A stretch of DNA of 64,000 nucleotides, from the NCBI RefSeq assembly GCF_024323335.1, contig NC_066584.1:431483408-431547407 (forward strand). The letters run 5' to 3'. Below are positions 10,849 to 64,000 of this stretch, in pieces. Numbering within the stretch: position 1 is the stretch's first letter; each line of letters begins with the position of its first letter. Source of the stretch: Lathyrus oleraceus. Lineage: Eukaryota; Streptophyta; Magnoliopsida; Fabales; Fabaceae. Made by a program: the position numbers and the translations under genes. Under the pieces are notes generated by a model. That model worked only from the letters and a program-made list of their open reading frames with translations. It was not told where the DNA came from and did not search any database.

Positions 10849-13418
10849 ATGGAACATCTAGAGCAAGAGAACAGAGATTTGAAGGACGAGATTGGCCGCC
10901 TGAATGCCATGATGGAGTCAGTCCTAGCTGCTCAAAGTCAATCTTCTCCAACGCCTGCAACTCCTCCTCCTCAGAGAGCGGTCATATCAGAGGTTCTTTC
11001 TTCAACTGTGCCTGCCGCTCATTTCGCTCCTGCCATGCCTTCCGGATTCCCGTGGGGAATGCCGCCCAACTTTGTACCTGAAGGTTTTGTGCCTACTTTT
11101 GCTTCCATGTCGGCATCTAGCCTGGTCATGTCTGTGCTACCACCGATTGTTCACATTATGCCTCGTGTCGAGGACACCATCTATCATTCTGAGCCGTATG
11201 AGGGCCCTGATATTTATGAGAAGATGGATGAAATGAAATACCAATTCCTTGAGCTGCGAAAGGAGTTGAAGACCCTAAGGGGAAAAGATTTGTTCGGTAA
11301 GAGTGATGCGGAGCTTTGCTTGGTTCCTAATGTTAAGATCCCGATGAAGTTCAAAGTCCCTGACTTTGAAAAGTATAAGGTGAATACTTGTCCACTCAGT
11401 CATCTCATCATGTATGCTAGAAAGATGTCGATGCAAACCGATAATGATCAATTACTGATTCATTATTTTCAAGACAGTCTGACTGGTGCCGCTCTGAGGT
11501 GGTACATGGGTTTGGATGGTGCGAGTGTCCGCATGTTCAATGATTTGGGTGAGGCTTTCATGAAGCAGTACAAATATAATATGGATATGGCGCCAGATAG
11601 GGACCAATTAAGGTCATCATCTCAAAAGGACAAAGAGACGTTCAAAGAGTACGCTCAGCGATGAAGAGAACTTGTCGTTCAGATTACCCCTCCTTTGGAA
11701 GAAAAGGAGATGACCAAGATTTTTCTCAAGACCTTGAGCTTATTTTACTATGAGCGAATGATTTCCAGTGCCCCTAGTGATTTTACCGAAATGGTAAACA
11801 TGGGGATGAGGTTAGAAGAAGGTGTCTGAGAGGGACGGTTGTCTAAAGAGGAGGTTTCGTCTAGCAAGAAGTACGACAGTGGGTTTGCAAGAAAGAAAGA
11901 AGGCGAGACTAATGCAGTATCAGTTGGAAGGCAGAGGAGGCCTCATGCCAGAAGAAGTCCACAACCTCGTCAACATCATCATCAAGTATCATATTTTATT
12001 CCAGTGTTTTCCAACAATCAATCAATGCTCGTTCAACAACAACGTCAACAACAACCACAACAAAGAACAAACAACTACAACAACAACAACAATACCAACA
12101 ATCATCAACAACAACATAATTTTGAGAGGAAGAAGGTCTCTTTTGACCCAATTCCTATGACTTATGCTGAATTGTATCCATCATTAGTTCTCAAGAACCT
12201 TTTGCAATCAAGAAATCCTTCGCAGATTCCAGAACCACTTCCATGGTGGTACAAGCCAAAGTTTCATTGTGCCTTTCACCAAGGGGCTCCTGGCCATGAT
12301 ATTGAGAACTGTTACCCCTTGAAGTATGAAGTCCAGAAGTTGGTTAAAAGTGGGATGGTGTCCTTTGAGGATCGTGCGCCGAATGTCAAAGCTAACCCAC
12401 TACCTGCTCATGGTAACCCTTCTGTTAATATGGTAGATGAATGTCCTGGGGAGTTCAAAGTATATGATGTCCGCTTCATTAGAGGATCCTTGGTGACAAT
12501 GCACAAGGATATCTGTTTGGTAAGTGATTGTGAGCATGACCATGATGGTTGTGCAATCTGTAGTGTTAATCCTCGAGGTTATGTGGTTGTGAAGAGAGAC
12601 ATCCATAGGTTGATGGATGAGGGTATGATCCAGATTCTTCAGTCCCATCACTTAGGTAACGATGTGAATGTTATAGTTCTTGTGTTCAAGACTCCAGAGA
12701 GAGTGGCGATTCAATTTGACAGCAACAACAATAACAGTGTCAGCGATAGATCGGTATCGTCGTTGGTAATACGGTTAGCGGGTCTAGTCTCGTATGCATC
12801 CAATAAGGTTGTTCCGTAACAGTATAATGCGACTATGTTAGAGAATGGTCAAGAGGTTTCGTTGCCTACAACCAATTCTGTTGTGAGCATTGCTGATGTT
12901 ATGAAGATGACCCGTAGCGGTCGTGTTTTTGGGCCGGTGTTCCCAAAGAATGTAGAAGATGTATCTGCCAATAAGAGTGTTGAAGTGTCTGCAGTTGATC
13001 CGATTAGTGCTCCTAAGTGTCAGTCTGGTGAATCCAGCGGTTTAAAGCCTAACGATGATGAGGTACTCCGGTTGATTAAGAGCGACTTTAATATGGTGGA
13101 GCAGTTGCTCCAAACTACCTCCAAGATTTCAGTGTTGTCTCTGCTTATGAATTCTAAAGCGCACAAAAAATCATTGTAAAGAGTATTGGAGAAAGCTTAT
13201 GTAGAGCACGATGTTACGGTGGATCAGTTGTGGCTAACATCACTTCCTGCAACAATTTGAGCTTCTATGATGAGGAACTTCCTAAGGAGGGTAGGAATCA
13301 CAATTTGGCTTTGCATATTTTAATGAATTGTAAGGAGGATGCACTGTCAAATGTGTTGGTTGATACTGGTTCGTCTTTGAATGTACTTCCCAAATCAACT
13401 CTTTCTCGATTGACATAT
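10849..13418 (+). pseudogene. Outer Ogre gag-protease, first part
   Basis: Gag probably starts at the ATG at 10849 (MEHLEQENRDLKDEIGRL, coiled-coil-like); the open frame extends further upstream. The Ty3-type gag core is visible at about 11330-11660 (IHYFQDSLTGAALRWY, LGEAFMKQY). A Q/N-rich stretch lies at about 12020-12125, and a zinc-knuckle-like C-x2-H-x5-H-x4-C motif (CAFHQGAPGHDIENC) follows. In-frame stops are at 11662 (TGA), 11827 (TGA), 12817 (TAA) and 13177 (TAA). A frame change near 13210-13230 leads into the aspartic protease segment with active-site motif VDTGSS at about 13360. The gene is cut at 13418 by the nested element and resumes at 35204. Confidence 0.88.
13414..13418 (+). 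other. Left target-site duplication of the nested element (CATAT)
   Basis: CATAT immediately precedes the TGTAACACC terminus. The same five bases occur at 30225-30229 (before the solo LTR) and at 35199-35203 (after it). Confidence 0.9.
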
Positions 13419-16400: not shown

Positions 16401-18387
16401 TGGTCCAATTAGGCTCAAATTTGGTATGGTAGACCTTGAATATCCCCTGTTTAGGTGTAAATTATTTGAGAATTTTTGGAATTGCTTTGATATGGAATTG
16501 GATGCAATAGTTCTGTTTGTATGTTTGATGCTTCATTTGAACTAGTTTGCTTTGTTTTGTGCTCAAAATGAACATGATGAATGATATAGACATGAGACCA
16601 ATGGTGTTTGCTCTTGTTTGACTTTAATTTGACTTTGGTTGGTGAATGCCTTGCTGTTTAGGAATTTTTCTTGCTTTGGACCCTAGGCTTAGCCTAGTGG
16701 TCTTGTTGCTAATATTTGCTTGATTTTTCAGGATCAAAAGCATAATGCACATGGAGAATGAATCAAGTTAAATGCAATTGATGTTGTTGATGTTTGCATA
16801 CTAACATAACATTGTTTTGTAGGTTGTGAAGCTTAGGCTTGGGCTTTGAGCTTGCCTTGTTGTGCATTGCTTTGTATAGTTTGATTGATTGAGCACTTGT
16901 TGTTTATGGTTTGTCTGTCTGAGTTATTAACTGGTTAGCTTTTGTACAGGTACACTTAGTTGCTTAGTTCCTTGTGAACTTTTGCTTTGCTTTGCTTGCT
17001 TAAGCAACTTGCATTGAGGTACGATCTCTCGACTTCATGTAGTCTGGGAGACCCGGCTGTTACCGGGCCGGGCAAATGTCTGAAGTCCTCCTTAAGAGGC
17101 ATTGATTGTGATTGTTTATTTTTTGTGCCAAGCAGGTGAAAGCCCTCTATGAGGCAATTGGTGGAAGGTAGGGATACGCAATCTATCCCCCACTATTCTG
17201 TGAGTCTTCTCCTTGCTCCCATTACATGGTCGTAGCACTGAGATACAAACCCAAGATCCGTGCAGTGCACATTGTGTCAGAGTCTCTGAGTATAGAAGGG
17301 TTCCCCTATTCTGGACCCATGCTCATTTGTCAGATGCTCTCCCTGGTTAGGGATAAGAGCTGTGAGGTCTGATCCTCACTTCACCTTTTCATCTGCTTCA
17401 CCTTAGCCTCGTAATGGCAAGGTTAAGAGCAAACCCAGCCTGTACAGATGACTTGCTGAGGCAGTCAAACCCATTGTTTGAGCCGCTTGATTTGGTTATA
17501 GTGGGTGCTATGTGAATATCTGTTTGAGATGCCTGTTCTCATTTGATTGATGATTGTATGCTTGTATGCTTGCTTTCCTGGATAGGATTAGTTTGCACTG
17601 ATGCAAGTAGGATAGGATAGAAACCTGAACGTAGGGTAAACGATGCATGACAACACTAGGCTCGAGTACAGCTCCCTGGTAGTGCGTCTTCCCCCGGTTT
17701 CTGGCTGAAATCTTTTTCCCTTTCAGGGGAACTACATCGCCCTGATTCTCGTTCCAGACGAGATATGTAGGCAGGTGGTCGTGCGAGACCACTCCGGGCA
17801 CTTTTTTTCCTTTGCGTGTGTTGTTTGTTTATCTGATTGTATGTTTTGGTTCGGATGCTGACGTAATTCCATCCAGTGGCTGTCGGGCTCCCTGTTTGCC
17901 ATTTTGTGTCAGTTGGTTCGGATGCCGACGTAATTCCATTAAGTGGTTGTCGGGCTCCATGTTTGCCATTTGTTTTTGTGTTTGTCTGCTTGTTTGGCGT
18001 GCGTAAGCCGAACTACGGCGGCTCTGATTCTCATGTTCAGGTGAGATACGTAGGCCTAAGGTGCGATGCCTTATCGAGCCCCTTCCTCCTAACCCCACCT
18101 GTGTAGTCATCTTGGCGTGCGTGTGTATGATGCTTGTGTTCTGTTTTTAGCAACCTATTATTTATTCTAGGACGTGGATCCCGTCGAGTACGACGGACGT
18201 GAGGGGTGCTAATACCTTCCCCTCACGTAACCGACTCCCTTACCCTTTCTCTCTGGTCGTGAGACCGTGTCTTTCCAGGTTTTTCTGAGCGTTTCCTTTC
18301 CCTATCTTGGGATAAATAACGCGCAGTGGCGACTCTGTTTGTTCTTTTTATTTGAGTCTCGCCGGTTGATTTTTCGCGGATGCGACA
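13419..18387 (+). repeat. 5' LTR of the nested element (4969 bp)
   Basis: It starts TGTAACACCTCAAAATTTGC and ends GATGCGACA, two bases before the PBS. It is the same length as 30230-35198, with about a dozen substitutions noticed by eye. It contains a TATA-like element (14830), a 67-bp direct duplication at 17848-17981 (GGTTCGGATG...), the conserved block GGGGTGCTAATACCTTCCCC, and a PBS-like TGGCGACTCTG at 18327-18337. Small open frames in it recur only because the LTR recurs; no gene is supported. Confidence 0.95.
14830..14837 (+). promoter_or_regulatory. Putative TATA box of the nested LTR
   Basis: TATATAAA lies about 1.4 kb into the LTR, matching the position in the other Ogre-like LTRs. 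The same sequence recurs at 31641-31648 in the solo LTR. Confidence 0.55.
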
Positions 18388-25654: not shown

Positions 25655-26790
25655 AGAGTTTCCGATTTTCAGATCGAAGAAGTTTCCGACGATCAGGTCG
25701 ATGTACTTATGGCATTCAGGCCAGTTTTCCGGTATTCAGACCGAGGCGGTATTCAGACCGAAGTGGCATTCAGGCCAGTTTTCCGGTATTCAGACCGAGG
25801 CGGTATTCAGACCGAAGTGGCGTTCAGGCCGATTTTCCGATTTTCAGATCGAAGAAGTTTCCGACGATCAGGTCGATGTACTTATGGCATTCAGGCCAAT
25901 TTTCCGGTATTCAGACCGAGGCGGTATTCAGACCGAAGTGGCGTTCAGGCCGATTTTCCGGTGATCAGACCGAAGAAGTTTCCGACGATCAGGTCGATGT
26001 ACTTATGGCATTCAGGCCAATTTTCCGGTATTCAGACCGAGGCGGTATTCAGACCGAAGTGGCGTTCAGGCCGATTTTCCGGTGTTCAGACCGAAGAAGT
26101 TTCCGACGATCAGGTCGATGTACTTATGGCATTCAGGCCAATTTTCCGGTATTCAGGCCGAGGCGGTATTCAGACCGAAGTGGCGTTCAGGCCGATTTTC
26201 CGGTGTTCAGACCGAAGAAGTTTCCGACGATCAGGTCGATGTACTTATGGCATTCAGACCAATTTTCCGGTATTCAGACCGAGGCGGTATTCAGACCGAA
26301 GTGGCGTTCAGGCCGATTTTCCGGTGTTCAGACCGAAGAAGTTTCCGACGATCAGGTCGATGTACTTATGGCATTCAGGCCAATTTTCCGGTATTCAGAC
26401 CGAGGCGGTATTCAGACCGAAGTGGCGTTCAGGCCGATTTTCTGGTGTTCAGACCGAAGAAGTTTCCGACGATCAGGTCGATGTACTTATGGCATTCAGG
26501 CCAATTTTCCGGTATTCAGGCCGAGGCGGTATTCAGACCGAAGTGGCGTTCAGGCCGATTTTCCGGTGTTCAGACCGAAGAAGTTTCCGACGATCAGGTC
26601 GATGTACTTATGGCATTCAGGCCAATTTTCCGGTATTCAGGCCGAGGCGGTATTCAGACCGAAGTGGCGTTCAGGCCGATTTTCCGGTGTTCAGACCGAA
26701 GAAGTTTCCGACGATCAGGTCGATGTACTTATGGCATTCAGGCCAGTTTTCCGGTATTCAGACCGAAGTGGTGTTCAGGCCAAGAAAATG
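25655..26790 (+). repeat. 121-bp tandem array (about nine units) in the 3' UTR
   Basis: The anchor ATGTACTTATGGCATTCAG starts at 25701, 25876, 25997, 26118, 26239, 26360, 26481, 26602 and 26723. Every interval is 121 bp except the first, 175 bp, which contains an extra 54-bp sub-unit. Each unit is itself built from short ATTCAGACCGA / GTTCAGGCCGA motifs, so the array has a hierarchical structure. The unit has no stop in any forward frame, which creates long overlapping open frames that I do not regard as genes. Tandem arrays in Ogre 3' UTRs are known and can seed satellite DNA. Confidence 0.95.
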
Positions 26791-27691: not shown

Positions 27692-30229
27692 GAAGGACGA
27701 GATTGGCCGCCTGAATGCCATGATGGAGTCAGTCCTAGCTGCTCAAAGTCAATCTTCTCCAACGCCTGCAACTCCTCCTCCTCAGAGAGCGGTCATATCA
27801 GAGGTTCTTTCTTCAACTGTGCCTGCCGCTCATTTCGCTCCTGCCATGCCTTCCGGATTCCCGTGGGGAATGCCGCCCAACTTTGTACCTGAAGGTTTTG
27901 TGCCTACTTTTGCTTCCATGTCGGCATCTAGCCTGGTCATGTCTGTGCTACCACCGATTGTTCACATTATGCCTCGTGTCGAGGACACCATCTATCATTC
28001 TGAGCCGTATGAGGGCCCTGATATTTATGAGAAGATGGATGAAATGAAATACCAATTCCTTGAGCTGCGAAAGGAGTTGAAGACCCTAAGGGGAAAAGAT
28101 TTGTTCGGTAAGAGTGATGCGGAGCTTTGCTTGGTTCCTAATGTTAAGATCCCGATGAAGTTCAAAGTCCCTGACTTTGAAAAGTATAAGGTGAATACTT
28201 GTCCACTCAGTCATCTCATCATGTATGCTAGAAAGATGTCGATGCAAACCGATAATGATCAATTACTGATTCATTATTTTCAAGACAGTCTGACTGGTGC
28301 CGCTCTGAGGTGGTACATGGGTTTGGATGGTGCGAGTGTCCGCATGTTCAATGATTTGGGTGAGGCTTTCATGAAGCAGTACAAATATAATATGAATATG
28401 GCGCCAGATAGGGACCAATTAAGGTCATCATCTCAGAAGGACAAAGAGACGTTCAAAGAGTACGCTCAGCGATGAAGAGAACTTGTCGTTCAGATTACCC
28501 CTCCTTTGGAAGAAAAGGAGATGACCAAGATTTTTCTCAAGACCTTGAGCTTATTTTACTATGAGCGAATGATTTCCAGTGCCCCTAGTGATTTTACCGA
28601 AATGGTAAACATCGGGATGAGGTTAGAAGAAGGTGTCTGAGAGGGACGGTTGTCTAAAGAGGAGGTTTTGTCTAGCAAGAAGTACGACAGTGGGTTTGCA
28701 AGAAAGAAAGAAGGCGAGACTAATGCAGTATCAGTTGGAAGGCAGAGGAGGCCTCATGCCAGAAGAAGTCCACAACCTCGTCAACATCATCATCAAGTAT
28801 CATATTTTATTCCAGTGTTTTCCAACAATCAATCAATGCTCGTTCAACAACAACGTCAACAACAACCACAACAAAGAACAAACAACTACAACAACAACAA
28901 CAATACCAACAATCATCAACAACAACATAATTTTGAGAGGAAGAAGGTCTCTTTTGACCCAATTCCTATGACTTATGCTGAATTGTATCCATCATTAGTT
29001 CTCAAGAACCTTTTGCAATCAAGAAATCCTTCGCAGATTCCAGAACCACTTCCATGGTGGTACAAGCCAAAGTTTCATTGTGCCTTTCACCAAGGGGCTC
29101 CTGGCCATGATATTGAGAACTGTTACCCCTTGAAGTATGAAGTCCAGAAGTTGGTTAAAAGTGGGATGGTGTCCTTTGAGGATCGTGCGCCGAATGTCAA
29201 AGCTAACCCACTACCTGCTCATGGTAACCCTTCTGTTAATATGGTAGATGAATGTCCTGGGGAGTTCAAAGTATATGATGTCCGCTTCATTAGAGGATCC
29301 TTGGTGACAATGCACAAGGATATCTGTTTGGTAAGTGATTGTGAGCATGACCATGATGGTTGTGCAATCTGTAGTGTTAATCCTCGAGGTTATGTGGTTG
29401 TGAAGAGAGACATCCATAGGTTGATGGATGAGGGTATGATCCAGATTCTTCAGTCCCATCACTTAGGTAACGATGTGAATGTTATAGTTCTTGTGTTCAA
29501 GACTCCAGAGAGAGTGGCGATTCAATTTGACAGCAACAACAATAACAGTGTCAGCGATAGATCGGTATCGTCGTTGGTAATACGGTTAGCGGGTCTAGTC
29601 TCGTATGCATCCAATAAGGTTGTTCCGTAACAGTATAATGCGACTATGTTAGAGAATGGTCAAGAGGTTTCGTTGCCTACAACCAATTCTGTTGTGAGCA
29701 TTGCTGATGTTATGAAGATGACCCGTAGCGGTCGTGTTTTTGGGCCGGTGTTCCCAAAGAATGTAGAAGATGTATCTGCCAATAAGAGTGTTGAAGTGTC
29801 TGCAGTTGATCCGATTAGTGCTCCTAAGTGTCAGTCTGGTGAATCCAGCGGTTTAAAGCCTAACGATGATGAGGTACTCCGGTTGATTAAGAGCGACTTT
29901 AATATGGTGGAGCAGTTGCTCCAAACTACCTCCAAGATTTCAGTGTTGTCTCTGCTTATGAATTCTAAAGCGCACAAAAAATCATTGTAAAGAGTATTGG
30001 AGAAAGCTTATGTAGAGCACGATGTTACGGTGGATCAGTTGTGGCTAACATCACTTCCTGCAACAATTTGAGCTTCTATGATGAGGAACTTCCTAAGGAG
30101 GGTAGGAATCACAATTTGGCTTTGCATATTTTAATGAATTGTAAGGAGGATGCACTGTCAAATGTGTTGGTTGATACTGGTTCGTCTTTGAATGTACTTC
30201 CCAAATCAACTCTTTCTCGATTGACATAT
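27692..30229 (+). pseudogene. Second copy of outer Ogre gag-protease (duplication of 10881-13418)
   Basis: It is colinear with 10881-13418 at a constant offset of 16,811 bp. I noticed only four substitutions over about 2.5 kb (11584/28395, 11625/28436, 11802/28613, 11858/28669). It carries the same in-frame stops (28473, 28638, 29628, 29988) and the same frame change before the VDTGSS protease motif, so the stops predate the duplication. The N-terminal start is replaced by LTR sequence. It ends in the same CATAT before an LTR. Confidence 0.95.
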
Positions 30230-33200: not shown

Positions 33201-35198
33201 CATGGTTCCCTTGGTCCAATTAGGCTCAAATTTGGTATGGTAGACCTTGAATATCCCCTGTTTAGGTGTAAATTATTTGAGAATTTTTGGAATTGCTTTG
33301 ATATGGAATTGGATGCAATAGTTCTGTTTGTATGTTTGATGCTTCATTTGAACTAGTTTGCTTTGTTTTGTGCTCAAAATGAACATGATGAATGATATAG
33401 ACATGAGACCAATGGTGTTTGCTCTTGTTTGACTTTAATTTGACTTTGGTTGGTGAATGCCTTGCTGTTTAGGAATTTTTCTTGCTTTGGACCCTAGGCT
33501 TAGCCTAGTGGTCTTGTTGCTAATATTTGCTTGATTTTTCAGGATCAAAAGCATAATGCACATGGAGAATGAATCAAGTTAAATGAAATTGATGTTGTTG
33601 ATGTTTGCATACTAACATAACATTGTTTTGTAGGTTGTGAAGCTTAGGCTTGGGCTTTGAGCTTGCCTTGTTGTGCATTGCTTTGTATAGTTTGATTGAT
33701 TGAGCACTTGTTGTTTATGGTTTGTCTGTCTGAGTTATTAACTGGTTAGCTTTTGTACAGGTACACTTAGTTGCTTAGTTCCTTGTGAACTTTTGCTTTG
33801 CTTTGCTTGCTTAAGCAACTTGCATTGAGGTACGATCTCTCGACTTCATGTAGTCTGGGAGACCCGGCTGTTACCGGGCCGGGCAAATGTCTGAAGTCCT
33901 CCTTAAGAGGCATTGATTGTGATTGTTTATTTTTTGTGCCAAGCAGGTGAAAGCCCTCTATGAGGCAATTGGTGGAAGGTAGGGATACGCAATCTATCCC
34001 CCACTATTCTGTGAGTCTTCTCCTTGCTCCCATTACATGGTCGTAGCACTGAGATACAAACCCAAGATCCGTGCAGTGCACATTGTGTCAGAGTCTCTGA
34101 GTATAGAAGGGTTCCCCTATTCTGGACCCATGCTCATTTGTCAGATGCTCTCCCTGGTTAGGGATAAGAGCTGTGAGGTCTGATCCTCACTTCACCTTTT
34201 CATCTGCTTCACCTTAGCCTCGTAATGGCAAGGTTAAGAGCAAACCCAGCCTGTACAGATGACTTGCTGAGGCAGTCAAACCCATTGTTTGAGCCGCTTG
34301 ATTTGGTTATAGTGGGTGCTATGTGAATATCTGTTTGAGATGCCTGTTCTCATTTGATTGATGATTGTATGCTTGTATGCTTGCTTTCCTGGATAGGATT
34401 AGTTTGCACTGATGCAAGTAGGATAGGATAGAAACCTGAACGTAGGGTAAACGATGCATGACAACACTAGGCTCGAGTACAGCTCCCTGGTAGTGCGTCT
34501 TCCCCCGGTTTCTGGCTGAAATCTTTTTCCCTTTCAGGGGAACTACATCGCCCTGATTCTCGTTCCAGACGAGATATGTAGGCAGGTGGTCGTGCGAGAC
34601 CACTCCGGGCACTTTTTTTCCTTTGCGTGTGTTGTTTGTTTATCTGATTGTATGTTTTGGTTCGGATGCTGACGTAATTCCATCCAGTGGCTGTCGGGCT
34701 CCCTGTTTGCCATTTTGTGTCAGTTGGTTCGGATGCCGACGTAATTCCATTAAGTGGTTGTCGGGCTCCATGTTTGCCATTTGTTTTTGTGTTTGTCTGC
34801 TTGTTTGGCGTGCGTAAGCCGAACTACGGCGGCTCTGATTCTCATGTTCAGGTGAGATACGTAGGCCTAAGGTGCGATGCCTTATCGAGCCCCTTCCTCC
34901 TAACCCCACCTGTGTAGTCATCTTGGCGTGCGTGTGTATGATGCTTGTGTTCTGTTTTTAGCAACCTATTCTTTATTCTAGGACGTGGATCCCGTCGAGT
35001 ACAACGGACGTGAGGGGTGCAAATACCTTCCCCTCACGTAACCGACTCCCTTACCCTTTCTCTCTGGTTGTGAGACCGTGTCTTTCCAGGTTTTTCTGAG
35101 CGTTTCCTTTCCCTATCTTGGGATAAATAACGCGCAGTGGCGACTCTGTTTGTTCTTTTTATTTGAGTCTCGCCGGTTGATTTTTCGCGGATGCGACA
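30230..35198 (+). mobile_element. Solo LTR of the nested family (4969 bp) flanked by CATAT
   Basis: It is a complete LTR, TGTAACACC to GCGACA, with CATAT on both sides (30225-30229 and 35199-35203). It is followed directly by the continuation of the outer protease gene, not by a PBS, so it stands as a solo LTR. It has the same length as 13419-18387 with about a dozen substitutions seen, for example T30341 where both other copies have C. It also holds a TATA-like element (31641), the 67-bp duplication and the PBS-like TGGCGACTCTG near its end. Confidence 0.92.
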
Positions 35199-59715: not shown

Positions 59716-60784
59716 TGTCGCGGTTAGCAAGAGTCGCCACCGACTTTTCTTTTATCCAATAAGGAAAGGTGGAAAAGAACAGGAAAGACCTCAATAGACT
59801 TTGGGTTCGGGAGGTACATTATACAAAGGGAAGGTGTTAGCACCCTTTGTATCCATGGTTATCCATGGGCTCTTAATTGCTGGATCACTTATCTTTTCGT
59901 CTGAAAAAGTGTTGGTGAATTGCTTAAAAAATGTTTGAAAGAGAGTTTAACTTTGTAATGATTCTCGTATGAATGTATACAAAGTATTTATCTCGTTTGA
60001 TTTTGAAAGCGGTTTAGAAAAGGTTTTGAAAAGAGAATTTAACTTTGTAATGATTCTTGTATGAATGTATACAAAGTGGTTATCTCGTTTAGTTTTGAAA
60101 GTTGTTTGGAAAAATAGTTTGGAAAGGTGTGAGGTGTAAAAAGTATTTTAGGTTATGATCCAGTAATTGAGAGTTATACCTTCCTAAGGTAATTGAGAGT
60201 TTTTCCTATCCTTATGAGGGTAAAACTGTCCTTACTATTGAGAAGTAAGTAGTTTTATCCTTTGGATGTTTAAGGGTTATCGTAGGGTCATCGATTGGTC
60301 ATTGAAGGCAACAGTTGTAAGGATACCTTAGCATTCGAAGGGACTATCATCATTTAACCGTAGGCTACACCGAAGGGTCATCGAGGGACAAAATCGTATT
60401 TTCGAAGGCAACATCCGAGGGACCACGATTTATTTTATGATGATTTAATCGAAGGGCCATTGCTAAGTGTATCCCCACATTCGCGGGACATGACCGTAAT
60501 ACCATAATACCGTAAGGCAAAAGAGAGGTCCAAGATCACTTATTTAAAGGTCATATTTTAAAGTCAATTAAGTAATTAAGTCCATACTAAAATCCATACA
60601 TTAAAATTAATACATTAAAATTAATACATTAAAATTAACACATTAAAATTAATTGGGCCACTTAGGGTGAGTCTCCATAAGGGTATCCCACAAATAAAGT
60701 GGAAGACCTAACGGCAATCTTTTCCTGGGACATGTGAACCTTTGCAAAATTCAGCAAACGGGTTAGAGTACCAAATCCGGGTAT
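59716..60784 (-). mobile_element. Ogre-like LTR 3' portion on the minus strand (truncated)
   Basis: Read on the minus strand, the region contains the landmarks of Ogre LTR ends in their usual order: AGGGTGCTAACACCTTCCCT, CTTTCCTTATTGG, then GGTGGCGACTC (59727-59737 on the plus strand), and an end ...CCGCGACA at 59716. No PBS of the TGGCGACTCTGCTGGGGA type follows, so it is a solo or 3' LTR end. Inside are a 92-bp direct repeat (from 59946 and 60038) and a ~16-bp ATTAATACATTAAA repeat (60592-60650). The Ty3 element at 60785 cuts it off on the right. Confidence 0.7.
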
Positions 60785-60907
60785 TGTAACACCCCGATAA
60801 TAATATGGTCATTATTTAAATTAAGTTAATAATAGATTTATTAATTTAATTAGATAATTGGATTATTATTATTATTATTATTATTGGAATAATTATTTAT
60901 TGGAATA

Positions 60908-60915
60908 ATATATAA
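60908..60915 (+). promoter_or_regulatory. Putative TATA box of the Ty3 LTR
   Basis: TATATAAG is about 120 bp into the LTR. If used, the palindrome cluster would lie downstream of transcription start. Another start further in cannot be excluded. Confidence 0.4.
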
Positions 60916-61375
60916 GTTGGAATTTAGAAAAATCCCATTTTTGGTAAAAAGGTTATTTTCACGTGAAAAGGGAAAAGAGGCAGAAAGGGCAAAAAGCCAG
61001 AGAACGAAGGTTGAAGGAAGGAGAAGCTTGGAGCTCGGAAGCTGCCGGATTAACTCAGGTAAGGGGGGTTTATCATCGGTTAAAGGGTATTATATGATAA
61101 TATGTACTGGGTAGTGATAACCATTGGTTGTACCTCTGATTAGATTGATGCATGATGAATCTGTGAAATATTGGATGAATGAAATTGAATGATAATTGAA
61201 AAGAATTCGTAGGAATTAGTAGGGATAATGTTAGGAACGGTGAAGACGAATAGGATATGATTCGTGTAGATGATATGGACGATTATTGTGTGTAATTTGG
61301 ACTGTGGAAGGTTGGATCGGATAGGTTTCGTAACAGAGAAAGCCATAGCAGATCTGAGAGTTCTGGTTTCTGGTC

Positions 61376-61635
61376 ATACGCGTATGGCACTAGGCAATAC
61401 GCGTATGAGCTGGCTGGTACGCGTATGGAGGAGGCTTTACGCGTATGGGTGCAAAAGATGATATTTTGAACGTAAAATGGTCTCTGTTGATACGCGTAGC
61501 ATACGCGTATGAGACAGGTGATACGCGTATGAGTGGGGCGAGGAAATGCGCAATACGCGTATGAGAGTGGGCATTACGCGTATGGACTTGGTCAGGTTTG
61601 GGCAATACGCGTATGGGCTTAGGCAGTACGCGTAT
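61376..61635 (+). promoter_or_regulatory. Cluster of eleven TACGCGTA palindromes in the LTR
   Basis: ATACGCGTAT or a one-base variant begins at 61376, 61397, 61417, 61437, 61490, 61501, 61521, 61553, 61574, 61605 and 61626, nearly always followed by G. Every copy contains ACGCGT, which fits the VCGCGB box bound by CAMTA factors. The spacings (21, 20, 20, 53, 11, 20, 32, 21, 31, 21) approximate multiples of 10.5 bp. The sequence between copies is not clearly repeated, so the motif itself appears to be what is kept. Confidence 0.85.
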
Positions 61636-61930
61636 GGGCAGATTTGTGATTTTCCTGAACTGTGGTTGTGCAGTTTTTAGTTGTTTAGGCTGAGTGATGT
61701 ACTTAGCTGAGATATGATGTTGTAGGGATCATTTCCCGTTGTTTTGAGTAGTATAGGTATTAGTAGAGTGTACTAATACTATGATTGATTATGTGGCATG
61801 ACAGGAGATGTTTTTGTTGATGAGGTGTGATGGTATACATGATGTTGTGAATGTATGCATTTGTGAATAGACTATCCTATGGCTTAGAGTGTGAGCATGT
61901 GTCTATTCTTGATTTCTGTTGATGTTGTAT

Positions 61931-62138
61931 TGCTAGGTGATTAGCATGCATATTGTGGCCTTCGGGTGGTAGCTAATTCCCATGGTGAGGAATTAGTGAG
62001 TAAATCATTTTGATTGTTGTTGTTAATGTTTGCATGCTAGGTGATTAGCGTGCATGTCATGGCCCATTTGGGGTGGTAGCTAATTCCCATGGTGAGGAAT
62101 TAGTGAGTGAGTCATTATGTCTCAAATGAGTGGGACTA
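61931..62138 (+). repeat. 104-bp imperfect tandem duplication in the Ty3 LTR
   Basis: Units start at 61931 and 62035 with TGCTAGGTGATTAGC and share GGTAGCTAATTCCCATGG and AGGAATTAGTGAGT. Confidence 0.88.
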
Positions 62139-62779
62139 GTGAGCTTGGTAGCCGTGCCTGGATTTGGACGGTGAGGTTGAACTATATGTTCACAACATAG
62201 TCGGTACCGCATGCATAGAGTCTCATTGCATAATGAATGTATGGCATATAATATGAATGGATGTATTCCAGTATTATATGTGTGTTGTGTGTTGTGTTGT
62301 TGATGTTGATTATGGTTGCTGAATGCGTAGTATGATTAGGGTGAATTAATGTGTTAATTACTTGGCATTACATGTTGTTCTATAATGCTTATTATATTGA
62401 TTGAGAAACTCACCCTTACACCTATTTTTCAGGTAACGAGAAATGAGTTGAATAGAAGCTAATGCTTGGAGTCTAGAGTAGTTCTTATGGGTCATGCTCT
62501 GATAGATGTAACATCGGGAGGGAATGTTTTAATTAATTTGATATTGGTGGTTGAATGATTTACATGTATTGTGTTACATGTTTTACATTGATGTTGGATT
62601 TTATTCCGCTGCGAATTATGCAAAAGAACCTTATTTTGATTAAATAAATGAGCATGACAGGACATTTTGATAATTTTGTGAAATGATTGTGTGACACCCT
62701 TCGGGGCATAATTACTCTGATGAATATATTGTTATTTTAATTATAATAATTTGGGGTATTTAGAAGGGTGTTACATTAG

Positions 62780-62791
62780 TGGTATCAGAGC
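62780..62791 (+). promoter_or_regulatory. Primer binding site (initiator tRNA-Met type)
   Basis: TGGTATCAGAGC begins four bases after the LTR end. It is the common plant PBS complementary to the initiator methionine tRNA. Confidence 0.92.
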
Positions 62792-62901: not shown

Positions 62902-64000
62902 ATGGCTGGAAGAGGTAGAGATGATGCTGCGATTGCTGAGGCTCTGGGTATGCTGGCTGGAGTACTTGGAGGAAATCCGAATGTTGTGGGAATGGGAGCT
63001 GCTCGTCAACTGAGTGAGTTCCAGAAGAACAATCCTCCAATGTTCAAAGGAGCATACGATCCGGATGGTGCTCAGAAATGGTTGAAGGAGATAGAGAGGA
63101 TCTTCAGAGTAACTGAGTGTGCTGATAACCAGAAGGTCAGGTTCGGTACACATATGCTGTCAGAGGAAGCTGATGATTGGTGGGTTGCTACCCGCACTGA
63201 GTTGGAAACTGCTGGAGATGCTGAGATTTCTTGGGCTGTGTTCAGAGAGAGATTTCTGAGGAAGTATTTTCCCGAGGATGTCAGAGGAAAGAAGGAGATA
63301 GAGTTCTTGGAATTGAAGCAGGGTAACAGGTCCGTTACGGAGTATGCTGCTAAGTTCACAGAGCTGTCGAAGTATTATACTCCCTATGCTGAGGCTGCTG
63401 GGGAATTTTCCAAATGTGTGAAGTTTGAGAACGGGTTGCGTCCCGAGATCAAGCAGGCGATTGGGTATCAAAGGATTAGAGTGTTTTCTGATTTGGTTGA
63501 CTGTTGCAGGATTTTCGAACAGGATTCCAAGGCTAGAGCAGAGAGCTATCAGCAAAGGGTTGATAGGAAAGGCAAAAATCAGATTGATCGTGGAAAACCG
63601 TATGCAGCTGGCAAAGGTTTCCAGAGGCAGAGTGGGATGAAGAGGCCTAGTGGAGGAGATTCTAGTGCTCCTGTTAAGTGTTACAGATGTGGTCAGGCTG
63701 GACATCGTATCCATGAGTGTACCAGTAATGAGAAGAAGTGTTTCAAATGTGGGAAAGGTGGTCATTTGGCTGCGGATTGCCGGTTGAAGACTGTGACTTG
63801 CTTCAACTGTGGAGAGGTGGGTCATATCAGTCCACAGTGTCCTAAGCCGAAGAAAGAGAATCAGTCAGGAGGCAAGGTTTTTGCTTTATCGGGTTCTGAG
63901 ACTTCTGCAGATGATCGTTTGATCCGAGGTACGTGTTATATTAATGGCTTTCCTCTTGTAGCTATTATTGACACCGGTGCTACTCATTCTTTTATATCTT
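62902..64000 (+). CDS. Gag-protease (start of gag-pol) of the Ty3/gypsy element, partial
   Basis: The frame from the ATG at 62902 (MAGRGRDDAAIAEAL) stays open for 366 codons to the window edge. Gag core: PPMFKGAYDPDGAQKWLKEIERIF, WAVFRERFLRKYFP and GNRSVTEYAAKFTELS. A basic linker leads to three canonical C-x2-C-x4-H-x4-C zinc knuckles (CYRCGQAGHRIHEC, CFKCGKGGHLAADC, CFNCGEVGHISPQC; about 63678-63840). The aspartic protease follows with its active-site motif IIDTGATHSF at about 63964, just before the sequence ends. No stop or frameshift is seen, unlike the Ogre copies to the left. RT, RNase H and integrase are expected beyond the window. Confidence 0.93.
   Translation, partial: MAGRGRDDAAIAEALGMLAGVLGGNPNVVGMGAARQLSEFQKNNPPMFKGAYDPDGAQKWLKEIERIFRVTECADNQKVRFGTHMLSEEADDWWVATRTELETAGDAEISWAVFRERFLRKYFPEDVRGKKEIEFLELKQGNRSVTEYAAKFTELSKYYTPYAEAAGEFSKCVKFENGLRPEIKQAIGYQRIRVFSDLVDCCRIFEQDSKARAESYQQRVDRKGKNQIDRGKPYAAGKGFQRQSGMKRPSGGDSSAPVKCYRCGQAGHRIHECTSNEKKCFKCGKGGHLAADCRLKTVTCFNCGEVGHISPQCPKPKKENQSGGKVFALSGSETSADDRLIRGTCYINGFPLVAIIDTGATHSFIS

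Follow-up and report, generated by a model that had tools for sequence, protein, structure and literature searches.

Palindromic cores in the long terminal repeats of a Ty3 retrotransposon of pea are selected during replication

The palindrome array

A stretch of 64,000 nucleotides of Lathyrus oleraceus (pea; NC_066584.1, positions 431,483,408 to 431,547,407, hereafter the window) carries eleven copies of the 8-bp palindrome TACGCGTA in one long terminal repeat (LTR) of a Ty3 retrotransposon. The locus raises the question of whether such an array is held by selection or is the residue of a short tandem repeat. A comparison of 45 related LTRs answers that the palindromic cores are cis-acting sites selected during replication of the element. 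The array and its sites are listed below, where the pairing is a reading taken from the twelve-site arrays of relatives.

61376..61635, + strand: array of eleven TACGCGTA cores, ten with TG directly 3'
61377..61405, + strand: pair 1 (sites 61377 and 61398), spacing 21
61418..61445, + strand: pair 2 (sites 61418 and 61438), spacing 20
61491..61498, + strand: single site remaining of pair 3 (spacings 53, 11 here, compared to 53, 20, 11 in relatives)
61502..61529, + strand: pair 4 (sites 61502 and 61522), spacing 20
61554..61582, + strand: pair 5 (sites 61554 and 61575), spacing 21
61606..61634, + strand: pair 6 (sites 61606 and 61627), spacing 21

The count and spacings given in the original prediction (eleven copies in about 260 bp) were reproduced exactly, with the sites occurring at 61377-61634 (258 bp) and start-to-start spacings of 21, 20, 20, 53, 11, 20, 32, 21, 31, and 21 bp. 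Outside the array, TACGCGTA is absent from the rest of the window, and none of 100 dinucleotide shuffles gave eleven copies (mean 0.08). Six sites are full ATACGCGTATG, four deviate at the first base only, and one is ATACGCGTAGC, while ACGCGT is contained in every site. CpG observed/expected is 1.7 in the array at a GC content of 51%, compared to 0.54 in the window. One can group the sites into pairs spaced about 20 bp, and the partner of the pair-3 site was lost via a 20-bp deletion common to both LTRs of the window element.

Selection on the palindromic cores

The 45 LTRs consisted of 30 recruited by LTR similarity (L003-L032) and 15 recruited via the motif at the start of contig C1 (L058-L072); for L033-L057 only lengths were taken. 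The genome-wide counts given below refer to the 3.8-Gb assembly with 1,550 contigs, in which the LTR similarity search gave 11,100 first-look candidates; 40 of these were scored, all 40 matched the window LTR, and 30 of the 40 supplied the set L003-L032. The tree of the 45 LTRs was built without the motif columns, taken as every column set (12 in all) in which at least one of the 45 rows has the motif, and 309 columns filled in less than 70% of the rows were excluded. Internal branches were taken as the time before insertion and the terminal branches of 19 LTR pairs as the time after insertion, with the pairs providing an internal neutral control within one genome. Terminal branches of unpaired LTRs (motif 4, spacers 31, flanks 67, and rest 136 changes) were excluded from both counts. 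Three of the four motif changes on these unpaired branches lie in the first site of L026, where the first site is lost, and look like misalignment.

Before insertion, 1 substitution was counted in the 96 motif columns. The spacers had 144 (182 columns), the 250-bp flanks 430 (464 columns), and the rest of the LTR 1320 (1318 columns). After insertion, the corresponding counts in the 19 pairs were 4, 5, 18, and 48. The contrast of the motif between the two periods has a Fisher P of 9e-6 in the 45 LTRs, and the 30 similarity-recruited LTRs alone give 1:3 versus 570:33 (Fisher P 7e-4). Because the cores hardly changed before insertion while the spacers did, and decayed freely afterwards, we conclude that they were selected during replication. 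Homogenization of short units is an unlikely cause, as the spacers would have been carried along.

The expectation that the motif is conserved beyond its surroundings is thereby borne out. The proposal that the CpG cores have resisted decay stands for the active lineage, in which they are kept, but not for inserted copies, in which they mutate about like the rest; every one of the four motif changes seen after insertion is C to T or G to A.

Summed over the 12 sites, each of the 8 positions within the core had 0 or 1 internal change, the two positions after the core (TG) had 2 and 0, and the base just 5' had 15. The conserved block comprises TACGCGTA and nearly also the following TG, which is found 3' of the core in 79% of the sites aligned; with TG on that side, the sites have a common orientation. 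With 9-12 copies per LTR, the palindrome is among the best-kept LTR sequences of an element that is abundant in a crop genome.

Copies and array variants across the genome

Motif number, for which the original prediction had proposed a check among family LTRs, was 9-12 in all 45 LTRs, with twelve sites in 28, ten in 9, eleven in 7, and nine in 1. The commonest twelve-site array has spacings of 21, 20, 20, 53, 20, 11, 20, 32, 21, 31, and 21 (17 of 45 LTRs). Other arrays deviate mostly by one base per interval, L058 and L059 have 28 instead of 31, and some arrays have gained or lost blocks measuring 20, 21, or about 52 bp. When read as pairs, the sites are spaced 19-21 within pairs and about 20, 53, 11, 32, and 31 between them. 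Odd site numbers accompany point changes in a site, the 20-bp deletion of the window element, or a 21-bp deletion (L068). The evenness of site number alone proves little, since two of the nine ten-site LTRs (L010 and L026) go back to twelve-site arrays that have decayed.

The first site and its flank occurred 18,574 times genome-wide (9,406 + 9,168; at most 2 mismatches) and the control 15 + 17 times, which would amount to a very large reservoir of sites for the putative binding factor. Neighboring TACGCGTA copies 17-23 bp apart were found at 71,054 places (control 5), while 13 were found at 12-16 bp and 34 at 24-28 bp.

At 21 of the 34 places with 24-28 bp, another arrangement of TACGCGTA was seen, with spacings of 11 and 17 (e.g., TACGCGTATGGTACGCGTAAGGTACTCGTACGCGTA). 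It occurs at G000 C1:122403254, C3:235111002, C4:361025204, C5:290641891, and others, and its 17 bp is out of helical phase. In addition, LTRs recur every ~6.6 kb at G000 C5:105303309, 105309892, 105316474, and 105323055, and likewise in L030-L032, which suggests tandem LTR-interior-LTR-interior units with common LTRs.

Spacing and helical phase

The best period of the window array is 10.44 bp with a mean resultant length of 0.96, a value matched by none of 20,000 random placements of equal span and equal number of sites. The near-helical phasing described in the original prediction was thus recovered, and phase is a real, inherited property of the array.

So far, selection on phase itself has found no support. 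Before insertion, 9 one-base length changes occurred in the 182 spacer columns and 38 in 27 near-flank blocks of 23 columns, a frequency about alike in spacers and near flanks. Length changes of 2-8 bp numbered 3 in the array, 7 in the near-flank blocks, and 75 in 76 blocks of the remaining LTR. One of the three array changes was taken as real (L058/L059), while the other two were a parsimony step (21 to 19) and an artifact of the alignment at the deletion of the window element; blocks with missing pairs misalign in this counting. The verdict on 2-8 bp changes depends on the control, because about 8 would be expected in the spacers by the whole-LTR rate and about 2 by the near-flank rate. Among the sister arrays described below, that of GTTAACCGGTTAAC (21/50-51) is phased at 10.2 bp. 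The TTCGCGGCGCGAA array (19/46/20/46/19, L078) and the GTGGCGCC-type array (24/33/24/25, L076) are unphased at 10.2-10.5 bp, with mean resultant lengths of 0.05-0.36 and 0.12-0.22, respectively.

The sequence between the sites had been described as not obviously repeated, yet weak repetition is present. Mutual agreement of the 10 bases 5' of the sites was 195 against a shuffle mean of 142 (reached by 1 of 5000 shuffles), and the 3' side agrees less, with 153 against 133 (reached by 157 of 5000). Tandem Repeats Finder reported a 20-bp unit across the first four sites. A decayed repeat of ~10 or ~21 bp with no conservation of phase had been named as the picture that would speak against the original prediction, and half of it was found, as a repeat of roughly 20 bp may have given rise to the sites.

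Other palindrome arrays in related LTRs

Three LTRs chosen via a Medicago gag-pol query (L073-L075) are alike to the window LTR at 70-81% in the first 370-420 and last 480-600 bases, and carry GTTAACCGGTTAAC at spacings of 21, 50-51, 21, and so on. In three pairwise comparisons, with columns chosen by motif, the palindromes of the GTTAACCGGTTAAC family differed at 0/112, 1/84, and 1/84 columns, compared to 128/1693, 184/1627, and 148/1637 elsewhere. Pairs of GTTAACCGGTTAAC with a gap of 4-10 occurred 57,058 times genome-wide. The gap was 7 bases in every one of the 100 rows listed, many of which are the two strands of one place, and the gap letters differ.

Four more loci (L077-L080) were picked by the donor site described below without TACGCGTA beside it in the lists. 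L079 and L080 carry GTTAACCGGTTAAC, while L077 was dropped because it is the end of another LTR. Six TTCGCGGCGCGAA-type sites at 19, 46, 20, 46, and 19 were found in L078 (four with TTCGCGG and two with TGCGCGG), which resumes the window-LTR sequence from LTR position 860 at 85% over 165 bp, the window array ending at 850. Judged from this alignment, a homologous LTR carries a different array in the same place. Imperfect GTGGCGCCAGCCAC-type sites at 24, 33, 24, and 25 were found in L076, which has only a short BLAST match to the window LTR. The same putative intron region thus appears to hold one of several palindrome arrays, made of TACGCGTA, GTTAACCGGTTAAC, TTCGCGGCGCGAA, or perhaps GTGGCGCCAGCCAC, and the array would behave as an exchangeable specificity cassette because related LTRs carry different palindromes in the same region.

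Neighboring copies of CGCGGCGCGAA formed 4,192 pairs at 15-25 bp genome-wide, lying 18-20 bp apart in the 100 listed, and some of these pairs may sit in other elements. Pairs of CGCGGCGCGAA in a recurring layout over ~10 kb were seen at G000 C1:5481527-5491766, 11250183-11260497, and 14735540-14745902, apparently in another kind of element.

Position of the array in the element

The features of the element in the window are as follows.

60780..60784, + strand: target-site duplication GGTAT, 5' copy (GGTAT also directly after the 3' LTR, L003)
60785..62775, + strand: 5' LTR, 1,991 bp, TGTAACACCC...GGGTGTTACA (TG...CA), with a 100% identical partner LTR
60908..60916, + strand: TATA-like box ATATATAAG
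61059..62432, + strand: putative leader intron, CTCAG/GTAAGG ... TTTTTCAG/GT, from sequence and splice-site conservation
61961..62119, + strand: two copies of a 52-bp repeat (61961-62012 and 62068-62119), holding the strongly conserved windows GGTAGCTAATTCCCAT and GTGAGGAATTAGTGAG
62643..62648, + strand: AATAAA, possible polyadenylation signal
62780..62791, + strand: primer-binding site TGGTATCAGAGC, which we take to be complementary to initiator tRNA-Met
62902..64000, + strand: gag and the start of protease, open at the window end (Pfam Retrotrans_gag, zf-CCHC, and RVP_2)

The partner 3' LTR lies ~6.5 kb downstream at G000:C6:431550723-431552710, so that the whole element measures ~8.5 kb. 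The insertion is young, as the LTRs are identical and GGTAT stands at both ends. That the array sits in a Ty3 LTR, as originally proposed, is supported by the identical LTR pair, by gag with CCHC knuckles and RVP_2, and by an integrase with a Tf2-1-like SH3 domain. The best gag matches were 89-90% identical proteins labelled Lathyrus oleraceus. Pfam Chromo gave no match at E 0.01 at the integrase end, the C-terminal letters of which look chromodomain-like. The element is probably of the Peabody/Tekay type and probably Peabody of pea itself. At the gathering threshold, Rfam gave no match in 58-64 kb of the window. A search with an antisense open reading frame returned a single metagenome protein (83%, with 56% of the query covered), which is probably the same LTR.

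The array lies ~470 bp downstream of the TATA-like box, and ATATAAG occurs in the first 400 bp, the part searched, of 28 of the 45 LTRs. A donor, CTCAG/GTAAGGGGGG, follows the TATA-like box by ~150 bp, the acceptor TTTTTCAG/GT stands at 62425-62434, and the putative intron between them contains 66 ATG triplets. All 41 LTRs that have the donor stretch keep its GT, and all 45 keep the acceptor AG. The donor 19-mer occurred 20,009 times genome-wide (control 0); the donor is also present in L073-L075 and the acceptor in L073 and L075. When the 45-LTR alignment is scanned in 16-column windows, the least-changing ones fall in the array, in the donor stretch, and within portions of the 52-bp repeat. 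Given the possible polyadenylation signal at 62643, the array would lie in R, and the conservation and placement of donor and acceptor suggest that it is probably inside a leader intron within R.

The 52-bp repeat has an inverted-repeat look (CTAATTCCCATGGTGAGGAATTAG), and its windows are as conserved among the LTRs as the array, which makes it a probable second cis element.

Possible mechanism and alternative explanations

On balance, we lean towards the array being a cis-acting control region that would work through its DNA: it would offer a dimeric host nuclear factor a multivalent platform and enhance LTR transcription from within the intron. As many as six pairs of TACGCGTA, mostly with TG after them, would be presented in R within the putative leader intron, with about two helical turns separating the members of each pair, and would be bound by a dimeric, dyad-symmetric host factor. 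The bound factor would raise LTR transcription, lineages with intact sites would keep replicating, and the sites of inserted copies would decay freely, while the array as a whole would be exchanged as a specificity cassette among related LTRs. The palindromic single sites seen in the families fit dimeric DNA binding. What we infer in this scheme is that the array acts through DNA and not RNA, that it activates the LTR instead of countering silencing, that the intron exists, that the pairs function as units, and that a factor binds them.

More tentatively, the leader introns of Tekay-type Ty3 elements may offer a modular docking slot, in which paired palindromes about two turns apart serve one dimeric host factor per family, and the exchange of cassettes (TACGCGTA, GTTAACCGGTTAAC, TTCGCGGCGCGAA, and perhaps GTGGCGCCAGCCAC) switches the host factor. 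Different arrays may address different host factors; GCGCGAA resembles E2F half-sites and GGTTAA trihelix sites. If the docking slot is true, and convergent with the repeated-motif (RM) boxes of Sireviruses, swappable arrays would be a general route for plant retrotransposons to choose a regulator or escape silencing. The well-kept palindrome and the different array in a homologous LTR make testable which host factor a successful retrotransposon relies on, and whether a change of array alters tissue, stress response, or silencing.

Together with the phase results above, several points weigh against the enhancer platform. In two of the 19 pairs the LTRs are not strict sisters on the tree (L030/L031 fall in a group of three, L061/L062 in a group of four), and 15 of the 45 LTRs were recruited through the motif itself, although the selection result holds without them. 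The genome-wide counts are not independent events because all copies share ancestry. The ATATAAG string is absent from the first 400 bp of 17 of the 45 LTRs, the donor stretch is gapped in 4 of 45 (no donor string in L061, L062, L065, and L066), and the 5' flank of L078 spans only ~25 bp. Finally, a role in RNA explains the conservation of the motif equally well.

Such a role, which the one orientation of the sites and their place in R allow, heads the alternatives, though we consider it unlikely. The palindromes of the unspliced leader RNA would be self-complementary packaging or dimerization sites while the spliced RNA without them would be translated, by analogy with retroviral packaging signals downstream of the major splice donor. 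The array does lie downstream of a conserved donor, the twelve-site array folds at -115.2 kcal/mol in sense and -81.1 in antisense (without a shuffle comparison), and the constant 7-nt gap of GTTAACCGGTTAAC neighbors in the rows listed (4-10 allowed) is hairpin-loop-like. However, folding energy says little since any palindrome array folds well, the flanks that would extend a hairpin are not kept, with position -1 changing freely, RNA offers no obvious reason for spacings close to multiples of 10.4 bp, the 53-bp interval included, and exon 2 retains 15 ATG triplets before gag.

Next in rank, and doubtful, is the suggestion of the original prediction that CAMTA (calcium/calmodulin) factors would be the binders and exert stress control. 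The ACGCGT of every site fits VCGCGB, the CAMTA box, but this six-base consensus is silent on the conserved outer T, A, and TG, and GTTAACCGGTTAAC has no VCGCGB box; CAMTA is only a candidate binder here.

Less likely again is an anti-silencing platform of the VANDAL kind, in which the array would bind an element- or host-encoded protein that strips DNA methylation from the element. The CpG in each core fits this, while the element parts read hold only gag/protease and integrase, with no extra gene there.

The least probable explanation, in which the motif is the best-kept part of decaying ~20-bp tandem units and phase follows from unit length, agrees with the residual spacer similarity, the gain and loss of 20-, 21-, and ~52-bp blocks, and the near-flank indel comparison, but it accounts for origin and phase and not for the difference between core and spacer changes, leaves the post-insertion loss of core protection unexplained, and as a full account conflicts with the data.

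Other repeats in the window

At 25764-26778, 8.4 copies of a 121-bp unit (97% matches) form an array built of shorter CGGTATTCAGACCGAAG-type units. Tandem repeats at 17846-17971 and 12034-12116 recur 16,811 bp further on, at 34657-34782 and 28845-28927, and the window therefore probably holds two copies of one long repeat.

Comparison with known systems

Among the matches listed and the passages seen in literature searches there was no report of the pea TACGCGTA array, which is no proof that none exists. The papers listed for the bare motif were unrelated, judged by title. For the motif with retrotransposons, none of the matches concerned a plant LTR by title; one of them, a redwood paper, places the motif in a 148-bp centromeric repeat. 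Nothing was found on CAMTA with CGCG and retrotransposon LTRs or on ttaaccggttaa, and the matches listed for Tekay with palindromes, including one on insertion targets, showed no report of the pea array. In viral contigs, the pattern TACGCGTATGN{7,14}TACGCGTATG matched two contigs with the same phage-like stretch, taken as chance, and no gag relatives were found there.

The LTRs of Del/Tekay elements, among which Peabody of pea is named, hold plastic CpG islands (Cruz et al. 2014, PMC4029996), and the pea element is probably of the same lineage. The absence of CpG islands is the predominant pattern there in the cluster with all eudicot elements, pea not being among the ten genomes, whereas the pea element, from a eudicot, has a CpG-rich stretch of conserved palindromes. 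The main text of that paper contains neither “palindrom” nor “tandem repeat”. The published figures for Peabody are a length of 8,000 bp and 16,000 copies (PMC2206039), and the window element likewise has a Ty3 gag-pol and long LTRs.

The VANC target motifs of Arabidopsis VANDAL elements are short, share one orientation, occur in non-coding DNA and introns, and change between relatives (PMC5735166). The pea motifs are similarly dense and in one orientation, but VANDAL elements encode their own anti-silencing protein, and none was seen in the parts of the pea element read. A palindrome-rich, highly variable LTR region that is a small-RNA hot spot was described in 2016 work cited in PMC5311732; the palindrome-rich LTR region is shared with the pea element, while the superfamily differs.

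The closest known system are the RM boxes of Sireviruses (Ty1/copia; Bousios et al. 2010, PMC2829016), element-specific palindromes with at least 8 copies per element, mostly clustered in the LTR. They are strongly conserved amid diverging flanks and CpG-rich, vary in palindrome by element, and have a CGG-CCG core a short distance upstream of the TATA box. The pea LTRs share with them the many dyad-symmetric motifs, the CpG-rich stretch, cores kept amid diverging flanks, and a palindrome that differs between elements. Unlike the RM boxes, the pea array belongs to a Ty3 element, has a CGCG core at spacings near multiples of 10.4 bp, and sits in a putative intron on the downstream side of the TATA-like box. 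Beyond the RM boxes, selection in pea could be split from drift via LTR pairs, and a different array stands at the same place of a homologous LTR; the pea array is a Ty3 variant of this system with apparently exchangeable arrays.
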